Source: Synergistota bacterium
Lineage (GTDB): Bacteria; Synergistota; JAGHAJ01
Direction of reading: 5' to 3'
DNA: 6,204 bases
Assembly: GCA_021161545.1 (NCBI GenBank)
Contig: JAGHAJ010000054.1
Span: forward strand, 1 to 6,204
Shown here: positions 1 to 5,428 of the stretch, in pieces
How the letters are laid out: each line of letters opens with the position of its first letter
How positions within the stretch are numbered: position 1 is the first letter of the stretch
Notes under the pieces: generated by a model
What the model was told of the DNA's origin: nothing
The model's input: the letters and a program-made list of their open reading frames with translations, nothing else
The model's database searches: none
Program-made: the position numbers and the translations under genes

Positions 1-155
1 AAAGATAAAGCGCCTGGACTCCTCTGTGAAAGTGAGGAGTTGACGAGGACAGGGTTTATCGAGTTTTTCGGCGGATGCCCTGAGGTGAAACCCTCGCCTT
101 AAGCCCTTCTACAAACCCGGTAAGAGGTGACTCCCGGACAAAGTGAAGGGCAGGA
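1..155 (+). ncRNA. glmS ribozyme: glmS self-cleaving ribozyme / GlcN6P riboswitch
   Basis: This is the metabolite-activated ribozyme in the 5' leader of glmS. Glucosamine-6-phosphate binds and acts as a cofactor for self-cleavage of the mRNA, which lowers glmS expression. The conserved 5' core AGCGCC lies at 9-14, so cleavage is expected between A9 and G10. Helix P1 is 18-24 paired with 34-40 (ACTCCTC/GAGGAGT). It is followed by the conserved TTGACGAGG (40-48), GGGTTTATCGAG (52-63) and CGGCGGATG (69-77). CAGGG (50-54) can pair with CCCTG (78-82), GAGG (82-85) with CCTC (92-95), and a 3' domain helix pairs 103-109 with 145-151 (GCCCTTC/GAAGGGC). The element ends about 25 bases before the glmS start codon. 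The 3' edge is approximate. The glmS promoter must lie upstream of the window. Identification rests on recognised consensus segments plus the glmS gene directly downstream. Confidence 0.96.
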
Positions 156-178
156 TAACTGCATGAGGAGTTGAAACC

Positions 179-2130: not shown

Positions 2131-2660
2131 GGAAAAAAAGGCTGCTGCTCCATATATGCTGTGCACCTGATGCCACTATCCCTTATATACTCCTCAGCGA
2201 AGAGTATGAGGTTGTCGGATACTTCTATGGTTCAAATATACACCCACTATATGAATACAAAAAAAGAATAGCAGCCCTACAGGGCCTTTCAGAGAGGTGG
2301 GGTATGCCCATTATAGTTGAGAAGTATGAACCCTCCTCATGGTTGAAGAAGACCGCTATTTTCAGAGATGAACCCGAAGGTGGGAGGCGATGCAGGATAT
2401 GTTTTTTCCTTCAGCTTGACTCAGCAGCCCGAGTTGCAGCTGAAAGAGGTATCCACCTCTTTACAACTACGCTTACCATTAGTCCCCATAAAGACGTAGA
2501 TGCAATAAATACTATAGGAACAATTGCAGGTAAACGACATGGTGTTCATTACATCCCCCACATATTCAGGAAAAAAGACGGCTTTAAAAAGAGTGTGTAC
2601 TTAAGCCGTCTTTTAGGGCTTTACAGGCAGAACTACTGTGGCTGTATATTCAGCCGTTAG
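2124..2660 (+). CDS. queH: epoxyqueuosine reductase QueH (former DUF208)
   Basis: QueH reduces epoxyqueuosine to queuosine in the wobble position of tRNA Asp, Asn, His and Tyr, as the last step of queuosine synthesis. It is the iron-sulfur alternative to cobalamin-dependent QueG. From the TTG at 2124 the product is 178 residues, normal for the family. Visible family motifs are LLLHICCAPD near the N-terminus (adjacent Cys12-Cys13), RRCRICFFLQL (Cys90 and Cys93), FTTTLTISPHKD around 113-124, KKDGFKKS, and the C-terminal GLYRQNYCGCIFS with Cys172 and Cys174. The six conserved cysteines fit a metal/Fe-S enzyme. An in-frame TTG two codons earlier (2118) is too near the ribosome binding site. No clear own promoter was found, so readthrough from glmS across the antisense of the tRNA is possible. 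Its TAG stop overlaps the TAA of the converging gene. Confidence 0.94.
   Translation: MSRKKRLLLHICCAPDATIPYILLSEEYEVVGYFYGSNIHPLYEYKKRIAALQGLSERWGMPIIVEKYEPSSWLKKTAIFRDEPEGGRRCRICFFLQLDSAARVAAERGIHLFTTTLTISPHKDVDAINTIGTIAGKRHGVHYIPHIFRKKDGFKKSVYLSRLLGLYRQNYCGCIFSR
2571..2614 (-). terminator. intrinsic terminator of the sensor gene, inside queH
   Basis: AAAAGACGGC (2573-2582) and GCCGTCTTTT (2605-2614) form a perfect 10-bp stem, extended by four A:T pairs after one bulged T, with a 13-base loop. Read on the minus strand, the hairpin is followed by a run of six T (plus A run 2571-2576) and begins about 42 bases after the stop of the PocR/MCP-like gene, an ideal place for Rho-independent termination. 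On the plus strand it has only a T4 tail and lies within queH coding sequence. Confidence 0.72.
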
Positions 2661-3415
2661 GACTCCTTCTTGTAATCTGCGATGAGTTTCTCAAGCTCAT
2701 CTACCTGTGAAAATACGTAATCCCCAACCTTCTTTATCTCGCCTGCGACGACTGCAAACCCTGTTCCCTCTTCCCCGAGCCTTGCGGCTTCTATTGCGGC
2801 ATTTATACCAAGCACCTGTATGTTCTTTGCTATCCTTCTTATGCCGTTTCCTATGTTGTGCAGCTTTGTGTAGAAGTCTCCAGAGCTTGCAGATAGTGAT
2901 ATGTAAAGCTTGATACTCTCTGCTGCTATATTTACGGTGGCGCGCATGCACTCCTTGTCTTGAATTTTCTCATCCTCCAAAAGGTCAAGTAACTTCTGTG
3001 CAGGGAATCCATATTTGGACGCTTTTTCTGATATGAGACTCTTGTACTCTTCGTCTAACTCTCTCGCTTTTGCAAAGTCCCCTTCAAGGAATCCAACAAA
3101 CTCGCCATTGCTGTCGAATATAGGGGATGTAAATGCATAAAAACCCATGCTGTTCTTGTATACGATGGTGCACTTCTCCTCGAGTGCCCTGTTTCTTGCA
3201 TCCAGTCTCAGAGGCAAACACTCTTCTGTGAATATCCTCGAATTGGATAGAGTTGCTATGGTATCTTTGTGCTTCTGTGTACCGCGTATTTCCCCTACCT
3301 TTTCGATGATTTCAGCATTTCCTGTTGCCAGCCACACGGCGCTGTTGGTAGCTTCAGAAAGCATGCCAAGGATATTACTGATTTCACTTTTACCAGCTAC
3401 TTTCTCGATATCCAA
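2657..3415 (-). CDS. soluble PocR-like sensor with minimal chemotaxis-receptor tip
   Basis: The predicted cytoplasmic protein has 252 residues and no membrane segment. Residues about 15-175 resemble the PocR ligand-binding fold: SEATNSAVWLATGN at the start, then GFYAFTSPIFDSNGEFVGFLEGDF (91-114) in the position of the PocR core strands, then an Ala/Leu-rich helical end. Cys66, Cys82 and Cys156 are the only cysteines. Residues about 192-246 match just the hairpin tip of methyl-accepting chemotaxis proteins (GINAAIEAARLGEEGTGFAVVAGEI), the part that contacts CheA/CheW. The usual long coiled coils, HAMP and methylation helices are missing. I choose TTG 3415 because a strong ribosome binding site (3421-3430) and a promoter lie just upstream. 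The ATG at 3499 would add 28 basic residues but has no usable ribosome binding site. It converges on queH with overlapping stops and diverges from padR. PocR assignment is by pattern only, and the ligand is unknown. Confidence 0.85.
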   Translation of the reverse strand: MDIEKVAGKSEISNILGMLSEATNSAVWLATGNAEIIEKVGEIRGTQKHKDTIATLSNSRIFTEECLPLRLDARNRALEEKCTIVYKNSMGFYAFTSPIFDSNGEFVGFLEGDFAKARELDEEYKSLISEKASKYGFPAQKLLDLLEDEKIQDKECMRATVNIAAESIKLYISLSASSGDFYTKLHNIGNGIRRIAKNIQVLGINAAIEAARLGEEGTGFAVVAGEIKKVGDYVFSQVDELEKLIADYKKES

Positions 3416-3420
3416 CGTTC

Positions 3421-3430
3421 TCCCCCCTCT
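3421..3430 (-). promoter_or_regulatory. ribosome binding site deciding the sensor-gene start
   Basis: On the minus strand AGAGGGGGGA lies about six bases before TTG 3415. The alternative ATG at 3499 has only an AGG two bases away. This supports the shorter 252-residue protein. Confidence 0.7.
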
Positions 3431-3447
3431 AAATCCCCGTTTTAGAT

Positions 3448-3476
3448 ATTTTACCTCTTTTGACAAAGTTTGGCAA
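3448..3476 (-). promoter_or_regulatory. sigma-70 promoter for the PocR/MCP-like gene
   Basis: On the minus strand TTGCCA (plus 3471-3476), a 17-base spacer and TAAAAT (plus 3448-3453) each differ from consensus by one base. Transcription would start near 3441, giving a leader of about 25 bases that includes the ribosome binding site at 3421-3430. The promoter lies inside the longer reading frame that begins at 3499, which argues against that start. Confidence 0.75.
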
Positions 3477-3492
3477 GTTGATTTGAAAATCC

Positions 3493-3521
3493 TTGACATG
3501 ACCTGATACTTGTATTATAAT
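3493..3521 (+). promoter_or_regulatory. consensus sigma-70 promoter for the padR operon
   Basis: TTGACA (3493-3498), a 17-base spacer and TATAAT (3516-3521) match the consensus at all positions, so transcription should start near 3528. The -10 region sits in a perfect 10-bp palindrome, TATTATAATA (3513-3522), and more AT-rich sequence follows to 3541. A promoter this strong in front of a PadR gene suggests it is held off by a repressor, most simply PadR itself, but I cannot assign a defined operator. The -35 boxes of the two divergent promoters are 16 bases apart. Confidence 0.88.
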
Positions 3522-3559: not shown

Positions 3560-3916
3560 ATGCGTAGAGGTAGAGGTGGATTTGGTCTTGGATTTGGTAA
3601 GGGTTGGTGGCTCATGGCCTATATATTGAGGGTGTTGAGGGATGGGCCTGTTCATGGTTATGAGATATTGGAGAGGCTTGTTGAGGATGGTCTTGCGTGG
3701 GGAAGTCCTGGGAGCGCTGGTGGTTTATACAGGCAGTTGAGGGTGATGGAGCAAATGGGACTTGTGACTTCTACATGGGATGTGACTGGCGGTGGACCTG
3801 CAAAGAGGGTTTACAGCATAACGCCGTATGGTATGGAGTATCTGTATGAGGTTGTCAATGATATGAAGGCTCTGAAGCGCGAGATAGATGGGTTTATAGA
3901 CGCCTTTGAGCGTTGA
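3560..3916 (+). CDS. PadR family transcriptional regulator
   Basis: The 118-residue protein is a winged-helix DNA-binding regulator of the short PadR type. The family usually represses its neighbours until a small ligand or stress releases it. Family motifs are GPVHGYEILERL (29-40), GLYRQLRVMEQMGLV (55-69) and the wing GPAKRVYSITPYG (79-91). A C-terminal helix (about 94-118) would form the dimer interface. The first 17 residues (MRRGRGGFGLGFGKGWW) are rich in Gly, Arg and aromatic residues, like the two small proteins encoded downstream. AGGAAGG (3541-3547) is the likely ribosome binding site at a somewhat long spacing of 12 bases. It is the first gene after a consensus promoter, and its stop is within the ribosome binding region of the next gene, so it is probably autoregulated with that operon. 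The effector cannot be read from sequence. Confidence 0.95.
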   Translation: MRRGRGGFGLGFGKGWWLMAYILRVLRDGPVHGYEILERLVEDGLAWGSPGSAGGLYRQLRVMEQMGLVTSTWDVTGGGPAKRVYSITPYGMEYLYEVVNDMKALKREIDGFIDAFER

Positions 3917-3933: not shown

Positions 3934-4143
3934 ATGTGGGGTAGAGGTTGGGGCTATGGCCCATATGGATTTGGAGGCTTTGGTTGGGGATTTGGTCCTG
4001 GATGGGGATACAGACCGGGTCCTTACTACAGACCGTCTCCGGAGGAAGAAAGGCAGTATCTTCTGGACTATAAGGCGTATCTTGAGGAGGAATTGGCTGC
4101 GGTTAACAGGAGACTTGAGGAAATAGATAGAGAAGGGAGGTAG
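3934..4143 (+). CDS. small Gly/Trp/Tyr-rich protein with C-terminal coiled coil (DUF5320-like)
   Basis: The 69-residue protein has two parts. Residues 1-34 are a low-complexity stretch of Gly, aromatic and Pro residues (MWGRGWGYGPYGFGGFGWGF at the start). Residues 36-66 form a charged amphipathic helix, PEEERQYLLDYKAYLEEEL followed by AAVNRRLEEIDRE, likely a coiled coil. This helix resembles the C-terminal half of DUF5320 proteins, small proteins of unknown function common in anaerobes. There is no signal peptide and no Cys. It starts 17 bases after the padR stop, and its own end carries the ribosome binding site of the next gene, so the three are co-transcribed and probably translationally coupled. 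I know no biochemical function. Self-assembly through the aromatic/Gly segment and the helix is an inference. Confidence 0.85.
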   Translation: MWGRGWGYGPYGFGGFGWGFGPGWGYRPGPYYRPSPEEERQYLLDYKAYLEEELAAVNRRLEEIDREGR

Positions 4144-4148
4144 TGAAG

Positions 4149-4394
4149 ATGCCTGCATTTGATGGGACAGGTCCTGCTGGTCTTGGACCGATGACTGGAA
4201 GGGGTCTTGGACCCTGCGGTGCTTATTATCGTGGTCGTTACGGCTATCCTGCACCTTACTATGGCTACGGTTTACCTTACCGTTACGGTTGGGGTAGAGG
4301 TTTCGGCTATGGCTGGGGTAGAGGCTACGGTTGGGGTAGAGGCTACGGTTGGGGCAGAGGCTTTGGTTGGCGTAGAGGATGGGGCTGGTGGTAA
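4149..4394 (+). CDS. DUF5320-like protein with Gly-Trp-Gly-Arg repeats
   Basis: The 81-residue protein opens with MPAFDGTGPAGLGPMTGRGL and then GPCG, the recognised N-terminal signature of DUF5320 proteins (MP-x-x-DGTGP-x-G-x-GPMTGRG-x-G-x-C). The rest is Tyr/Gly/Pro-rich and then about five copies of a six-residue GWGRG(F/Y) repeat, ending WGWW. Cys23 is the only cysteine. It lacks the C-terminal coiled coil of the family, which is instead encoded by the gene just upstream. ATG 4149 is seven bases after AAGGGAGGT (4133-4141). The GTG at 4143 is only one base away and would spoil the MP start typical of the family. It ends seven bases before a strong terminator. Function is unknown; the positive charge and aromatic repeats would suit binding of nucleic acid or condensation with partners, as inference only. 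Confidence 0.88.
   Translation: MPAFDGTGPAGLGPMTGRGLGPCGAYYRGRYGYPAPYYGYGLPYRYGWGRGFGYGWGRGYGWGRGYGWGRGFGWRRGWGWW
4287..4382 (+). repeat. in-frame 18-bp tandem repeat coding GWGRG(F/Y)
   Basis: About five degenerate copies of an 18-base unit (GGTTGGGGTAGAGGCTAC and variants) begin at 4287, 4311, 4329, 4347 and 4365, with one extra Gly-Tyr pair of codons between the first two. The units at 4311 and 4329 differ at one base. The period keeps the reading frame and lies wholly within the DUF5320-like gene, as expected for a repeat that can change copy number without breaking the protein. Confidence 0.9.
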
Positions 4395-4400
4395 GCCCTT

Positions 4401-4432
4401 AAGTGGGGAGGTATGTTGCCTCCCCACTTTTG
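4401..4432 (+). terminator. Rho-independent terminator after the padR-DUF5320 genes
   Basis: AAGTGGGGAGG (4401-4411) and CCTCCCCACTT (4419-4429) form a perfect 11-bp GC-rich stem with a 7-base loop, followed by TT and then GTAAT, so the T run is TTTT counting the last stem bases. It lies seven bases after the 4394 stop and directly before the permease ribosome binding site at 4437. It may act as a partial terminator that sets less permease than small protein. Confidence 0.9.
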
Positions 4433-4436
4433 TAAT

Positions 4437-4444
4437 GGGAGGTG
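4437..4444 (+). promoter_or_regulatory. ribosome binding site deciding the first half-permease start
   Basis: GGGAGGTG is seven bases before TTG 4452. The in-frame ATG 4413 lies in the terminator loop and upstream of this site, and ATG 4458 is 13 bases away, so TTG 4452 is preferred. Confidence 0.72.
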
Positions 4445-4451
4445 GATAACA

Positions 4452-4952
4452 TTGCAGATGCTTGGGGGACTCATATACGGTATTATTGTTTTTTGCCTTT
4501 ATGCATATATGTTTAAGAAAAGAAAAAAGCAAGCATCTTCTGCCTTGAAGAAGGGAATTGTTCAATTCTTCAATAGGCTGCCGATGATACTTGCTATATT
4601 TCTCCTCATAGGGCTGTTTGATGTGTTTGTTCCCAAGGAGGTTGTCAGTTCTGTGGTTGGTGGTGGAAGAGGCATAGTATCCGTTATACTCTCTGTCTTT
4701 ATGGGGGCTGTTATGATGGGGCCTGTTGCTACATCCTATCCGTTGGGTGCCATGTTACTGTGCAAAGGGGCTGCTGTCTCTGCAGTTGCTGCATTTCTGT
4801 ACAGTTGGGTCATGCTTGGTGTCACGGTGGTGCCATTTGAGATATCCGTCTTTGGGGGCAGATTTGCGCTGGTGAGAAATATGTTCGCATTCATTGGTGC
4901 TGTGGTTATGGGATTGCTTACATCTTTGGTTCTCACGGGAGGACCGTTTTGA
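4452..4952 (+). CDS. half-size permease, ArsP/DUF318-like, first subunit
   Basis: The 166-residue integral membrane protein has about five hydrophobic segments: about 4-21, 43-61, 75-97, 100-130 and 145-164. A basic cluster KKRKK (22-26) follows the first and should lie in the cytoplasm. The pattern FFNRLP (39-44), VP (60-61), a Gly-rich segment, GAVMMGP (85-91) and LLCKGA resembles one half of the COG0701 permeases (ArsP, DUF318), which are about twice this size. The CSCG-type cysteine motif of arsenic-exporting ArsP is absent here (GPVATSYPLG stands in its place), so organoarsenical export is not supported. The next gene encodes a paralogous half and overlaps by four bases, so the two probably form a heterodimer. 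Transcription most likely comes from the padR promoter through the terminator, since no promoter was seen in the gap. Substrate unknown. Confidence 0.85.
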   Translation: MQMLGGLIYGIIVFCLYAYMFKKRKKQASSALKKGIVQFFNRLPMILAIFLLIGLFDVFVPKEVVSSVVGGGRGIVSVILSVFMGAVMMGPVATSYPLGAMLLCKGAAVSAVAAFLYSWVMLGVTVVPFEISVFGGRFALVRNMFAFIGAVVMGLLTSLVLTGGPF

Positions 4953-5428
4953 AGGAACACTGGTTTGAGTTCTTTGTCTTATTGTTATATATTTCACTAT
5001 CACTCTTTTATCCCGGGAAGGTTCAGCAGGCGTTTTGGGTAGGTATAGGGTTGTTCTTCAAGATGTTACCTATATTCGCTTCTGTTGTTCTGTTTTCCAC
5101 CTTTCTTGGTGTATTTTTGTCTCCTAAGTTTATACAGAGGTTTGTGGGAAAGGATTCAGGCATAAAGGGTATTATCATTGCGGTTATTCTTGGCACCGTG
5201 ATAGTTGGTCCTATGTGGGTGATGTTTCCCATGTTTAAGACATTTATGGAGAAGGGTGCACGTGTTGCAGTTGTGGTTGCCTTAGTCGGCACGTTTGCCG
5301 TGAAGACGCCGTGGTTGCCGTATGCAGCAACCTTTCTGGGTTGGGAGTTTGTCATTGTCTCCGTTGTTCTTATAGTGTGTTATGCTGTGGTCTCTGGACT
5401 TGCTATGGAAAGGCTCTTGGGAGAATAG
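4949..5428 (+). CDS. half-size permease, ArsP/DUF318-like, second subunit
   Basis: The 159-residue membrane protein mirrors the preceding one: FFKMLP (36-41), SP (58-59), a Gly-containing loop and GTVIVGP (82-88) fall at nearly the same spacings, followed by two or three more hydrophobic segments. VKTPWLPYAATFLGWEF in the second half would be the polar, Pro-containing part of the pore region. It begins at TTG 4949, which overlaps the previous stop as TTGA, with GGGAGG (4937-4942) six bases upstream, a classical arrangement for translational coupling of two subunits made in equal amounts. No Cys-rich metal motif is present. The family match is by pattern and is stronger for the pair than for either protein alone. 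Substrate unknown. Confidence 0.85.
   Translation: MKEHWFEFFVLLLYISLSLFYPGKVQQAFWVGIGLFFKMLPIFASVVLFSTFLGVFLSPKFIQRFVGKDSGIKGIIIAVILGTVIVGPMWVMFPMFKTFMEKGARVAVVVALVGTFAVKTPWLPYAATFLGWEFVIVSVVLIVCYAVVSGLAMERLLGE

Follow-up and report, generated by a model that had tools for sequence, protein, structure and literature searches.

Tail-only and signature-only DUF5320 genes side by side behind a PadR-family regulator gene in a Synergistota bacterium

The window analyzed here is a stretch of 6,204 nucleotides from the draft genome of a Synergistota bacterium (288 contigs, 82% complete). Two short genes lie next to each other on its forward strand, and both open reading frames proposed from the sequence alone were found in place. 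Gene 1 (3934..4143, 69 amino acids) starts at the ATG at 3934 and is preceded by AAAGGAGGTG. Gene 2 (4149..4394, 81 amino acids) starts at the ATG at 4149 and is preceded by GAAGGGAGGT, which lies within the final codons of gene 1, the gap between the stop of gene 1 and the start of gene 2 being 5 nt. A strong Shine-Dalgarno sequence was observed ahead of each gene, in agreement with the sequence-only reading, which had assigned each its own ribosome binding site. The product of gene 1 consists of a Gly/Trp/Tyr-rich part and a single C-terminal helix (residues 36-68), and that of gene 2 is made up of MPAFDGTGPAGLGPMTGRG and Gly/Arg/Trp/Tyr repeats and has no helix. The GYGWGR repeats of gene 2 are encoded by an 18-bp tandem repeat present in 4.1 copies (4305..4378, forward strand).

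The pair sits in an apparent operon on the forward strand whose first gene encodes a PadR-family transcriptional regulator, the N-terminus of which is rich in Gly and Arg (3560..3916; PF03551, E 1.4e-15). The Gly/Arg-rich stretch at the start of this regulator (3560-3610, forward strand), MRRGRGGFGLGFGKGW, resembles the adjoining small proteins. A consensus sigma-70 promoter, TTGACA-17-TATAAT, lies ahead of the PadR gene (3493..3521, forward strand); five promoter-like sites were found in the region compared with 3.1 expected from shuffled sequence, and only this one matched at 12 of 12 positions. On the 3' side of gene 2 there is a strong hairpin followed by a short T-run, terminator-like in form (4401..4429, forward strand). 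Folding of 4392-4440 gave -25.6 kcal/mol with a z of -4.6, and the hairpin was absent from the results of a separate pattern scan of the region. This hairpin possibly limits transcription into the two half-size permease genes which follow on the same strand, permease 1 (4458..4952, ArsP_1/DUF318-like; PF03773, E 3.3e-7, 30.2 bits), starting at either TTG 4452 or ATG 4458, and permease 2 (4949..5428, ArsP_1-like; PF03773, E 3.6e-6, 26.8 bits), which overlaps permease 1 by 4 nt. Because both permeases are half-size and score below the PF03773 cut-off of 32.3 bits, they are named ArsP_1-like only.

Elsewhere in the window, a glmS ribozyme/riboswitch (1-161, forward strand; Rfam RF00234, 99.8 bits) was found directly 5' of the glmS gene (179-1999). 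A tRNA-Leu (CAA) gene lies on the reverse strand between glmS and queH (2005-2092), and the same strand carries a gene for a PocR-sensor/chemoreceptor-type protein (2657-3499) with a C-terminal MCP signalling domain of only about 69 residues, which looks truncated when compared with normal receptors.

Both small proteins were searched against the Pfam profile of DUF5320 (PF17253; 99 positions, curated cut-off 27 bits), and both scored above the cut-off. Gene 1 matched with 39.1 bits (E 1.8e-9) over profile positions 35-99 only, and gene 2 with 45.0 bits (E 2.6e-11) over positions 1-53 only. Since these are the ranges matched, gene 1 carries the Gly-rich middle and the tail of the family, and gene 2 carries the signature and the Gly-rich middle. 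The N-terminal signature MP..DGTGP..GPMTGRG is found in gene 2 only, the match of gene 1 beginning at position 35, and the C-terminal helical (coiled-coil type) tail is present in gene 1 only. The swapped order of the two ends which had been noticed from the sequence alone, with the signature in the second gene and the tail in the first, is therefore borne out by the profile, as is the assignment of the first gene to the C-terminal part of the family. The same reading had taken the coiled coil to be typical of complete members; this tail is part of the Pfam profile, and most of the whole-genome DUF5320 matches listed extend to about position 99. Neither gene spans the whole profile in one polypeptide, which is the state common to many DUF5320 members.

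A second profile, made from 89 full-length members, gave 42.2 bits for gene 1 and 53.4 bits for gene 2. When the two halves of gene 1 were shuffled separately (500 shuffles) the top score was 20.0 bits, and when its Gly part was kept and the tail shuffled the top score was 25.0 bits; shuffling of the first 26 residues of gene 2 alone gave a top score of 17.3 bits. As the shuffled sequences reached the score of neither gene, an artefact of low complexity or composition was ruled out. Genes 1 and 2 were the sole DUF5320 matches in the source genome, which is 82% complete.

AlphaFold predicted one confident helix for gene 1 at residues 36-68 (pLDDT 88-98 by block) with a disordered first half, and no secondary structure for gene 2 (mean pLDDT 48). 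On the basis of this model gene 2 offers no partner coil for the helix of gene 1, and any contact between the two products would need the Gly/aromatic/Arg-rich arms. The earlier suggestion that the halves meet again as a two-protein complex is not supported by these predictions, in which gene 2 lacks a helix to pair with that of gene 1.

With respect to kinship, comparison of the two proteins by BLASTP gave an E of 5.9 over a Gly-rich stretch only, that is, no detectable similarity, and recent tandem duplication was rejected on this ground. An old duplication behind the pair is possible. The proposed paralogy of genes 1 and 2 rests on the shared family and not on mutual similarity. The best matches of gene 1 outside its own genome were three tail-only genes at loci L289 and L286 (40.1, 36.2, and 34.7 bits). 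Those of gene 2 were the signature-only genes of L112, L118, and L262 and the full-length gene of L099, and the signature partners present in L286 and L289 were not among them. That the best matches of the two genes are not partners of one another argues that such pairs were assembled from separately evolving parts, and inheritance of the pair as a vertical unit was rejected.

Within the phylum, 59 of 185 genomes have DUF5320, in most cases in the form of a single full-length gene. Full-length members such as those of L003 and L004 from this phylum combine the signature of gene 2, the Gly-rich middle, and the helix of gene 1 in one gene of about 90-140 amino acids, whereas in the window these are spread over two genes in the reverse order. 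Permeases similar to permease 1 occur in 53 of the 185 genomes, and among 29 loci examined from other genomes only that of G008 had PadR and a DUF5320 gene ahead of the permease; G002, of the genus of G008, has the permeases with neither PadR nor DUF5320 in front. The operon of G008 (L049) has PadR, a tail-only DUF5320 gene, and two half-permeases in an order identical to that of the window, but differs in having no signature-only gene at the locus, in the NifX-family gene which precedes PadR, and in the GGLPRCWYY motif of its tail-only gene. The source genome itself has three NifX-family genes, all on other contigs. In G004, which is in one family with G008 and, like it, in the phylum of the source genome, a tail-only gene stands directly after PadR with a NifX-family gene adjoining. 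No signature gene was present at the PadR/tail-only loci of G004 and G008, so the type of gene 1 can stand alone, and it persists without gene 2 in the nearest comparable operon, that of G008.

Partial forms of the family were also observed well beyond the phylum. Seeding a cross-phylum scan with the signature yielded 80 loci spread over many phyla; about 950 further genomes were searched whole. An in-house full-length profile was applied to the fetched loci, both cross-phylum and from the same phylum, and counted 171 proteins with both ends, 85 signature-only, 36 tail-only, and 25 with the tail on a longer protein, in a sample chosen by signature in which signature-bearing forms are over-counted. 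The 25 long proteins are mostly NifX-domain proteins with the tail far down the chain. Among same-strand neighbors, a signature-only gene was followed by a full-length gene in 29 cases and by a tail-only gene in nine, three of which (L111, L302, L095) appear to reflect assembly gaps or frameshifts; a tail-only gene was followed by a full-length gene in seven cases and by a signature-only gene in five. The last of these arrangements, that of the window, was found in L286 (genome G926), a genome with only two DUF5320 matches in all, and twice within 3.2 kb in L289 (G1101). Pfam confirmed the pair of L286 and the first of the two in L289. In both loci, which are from another phylum, the tail-only gene lies directly upstream of the signature-only gene on the same strand, as in the window, and no full-length DUF5320 gene was present; these pairs adjoin NifX-domain genes, whereas the pair in the window sits between PadR and the ArsP-like half-permeases.

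Other layouts were also seen. L285 (G1023) has tail-only, full-length, and signature-only genes consecutively, and in L081 and L116 (Dehalococcoidia) the order is the opposite one, signature-only then tail-only. Given these layouts, the partial genes can follow either order, and the window is not alone in its arrangement. PadR is followed by a full-length gene in L174, L177, and L283, and by a signature-only gene with no tail-only gene in L077, where PadR was confirmed. In other genomes the swapped pair recurs (L286, L289), but the two halves do not always occur together, each being found apart from the other (G004, G008, L077). The helix is shared, but what lies N-terminal to it varies, with at least six different Gly/aromatic sequences. 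Because forms with both ends, signature-only, tail-only, and NifX- and zinc-ribbon-linked forms all occur, the signature and the helical tail of DUF5320 are separable modules.

NifX-family proteins with a GRG-helix tail, such as those of L052 and L081, share with DUF5320 the Gly/Arg-rich stretch, the helical tail, and a match to the profile, but differ in that the tail is fused to a NifX-type domain. NifX-domain proteins with a GMGRGMG stretch and a DUF5320-type helical tail were noted at L052:4108-4686, L081:5882-6457, and L118:7366-8247, the last with a ferredoxin-like segment after the tail, and several tail-bearing NifX-domain proteins exceeded the DUF5320 cut-off in whole-genome searches. 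Small zinc-ribbon proteins of a separate family also start with the signature (MPRGDGTGP...CVCPSCG...CPKCG, with a four-cysteine ribbon at the end), often in the same cluster, in L101, L107, L108, L118, L147, and others. Two signatures about 60 residues apart in one chain were seen in L076, L107, L118, L119, and L141.

We consider it likely that genes 1 and 2 are paralogues from the modular DUF5320 family, placed next to each other in an operon under PadR control. The description of the locus as one protein divided between two genes was not supported, as tail-only and signature-only members are common and are found alone, together in both orders, and next to full-length paralogues; moreover, the closest relatives of gene 1 are tail-only and those of gene 2 signature-only, and the latter are not partners of the former. 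A special case of the modular reading, possible although doubtful, is that the lineage of gene 1 never had the signature and that gene 2 came later by insertion or transfer, so that only the operon is shared. The variety of N-terminal sequences ahead of one helix, the G008 operon without gene 2, and the lack of mutual similarity between the two genes are consistent with such an assembly, but the MPYGMGPAGWG start of the L286/L289 relatives looks like a worn signature and suggests loss.

Less well sustained is a subfunctionalised split, in which a full-length gene in the PadR slot was duplicated in tandem, the copies lost opposite ends, and the products form a hetero-complex. The full-length genes in the PadR-linked slots of L174, L177, and L283, compared with two complementary genes here only 5 nt apart, would fit this course of events, as would the tail-first pairs of L286 and L289 at loci lacking a full-length gene, the restriction of G926 to its two matches, and the resemblance of gene 1 to the tail-only genes of those pairs. 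We nevertheless judge it unlikely, given the solitary tail-only genes of G004 and G008, the signature partners in L286/L289 which are not among the best matches of gene 2, the lack of a predicted helix in gene 2, and the partial forms which flank a full-length gene in L285. That the tail-first, signature-second pair evolved on more than one occasion into a working two-component DUF5320, an obligate hetero-complex replacing the single chain, we regard as quite improbable. That the two are decayed or mis-assembled pieces of a single gene, an explanation which a draft in 288 contigs at 82% completeness might invite, is most improbable and was rejected, as both frames are open with a ribosome-binding site and family-typical sequence each, a simple break would not give this order, and the arrangement recurs in other genomes; the earlier argument that a single frameshift or stop cannot account for complementary ends in swapped order, each gene with its own ribosome binding site, was sound.

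If the two genes are paralogues of a modular family, as we favor, gene 1 would have retained, or had from the outset, the Gly-rich part together with the C-terminal helix, and gene 2 would have retained the GTGP/GPMTGRG signature at its N-terminus along with the Gly/Arg repeats. The product of gene 1 would probably self-associate via its helix and display an aromatic Gly-rich arm, and that of gene 2 may be a disordered Gly/Arg/Tyr/Trp-rich companion. Since the hairpin stands between gene 2 and the half-permease genes, the two small proteins would be produced more abundantly than the permeases. PadR may turn on expression of the set upon a signal, perhaps metal or redox, a suggestion which draws on the presence of NifX-family genes in 57 and of MinD-type ATPases in 43 of the 80 cross-phylum loci and on family knowledge, namely the ArsP_1/SO_0444-like permeases, which we take to be metal efflux permeases, and the NifX-domain proteins by most relatives, presumably metallocluster proteins. 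We know of no experiment linking any DUF5320 protein to oligomerisation or metals.

DUF5320 is common in anaerobes and almost unstudied; literature searches returned few open-access mentions and no function for the family. It is routine for the signature and the tail to be encoded by separate genes, in either order, and the window holds one more shuffled pair. These genes are ordinary members of a known family, although their layout is instructive, and the pair represents not a new kind of system but a clean natural dissection of signature and tail. Separable, reshuffled modules of this kind offer a way into the family, as each module is testable alone.
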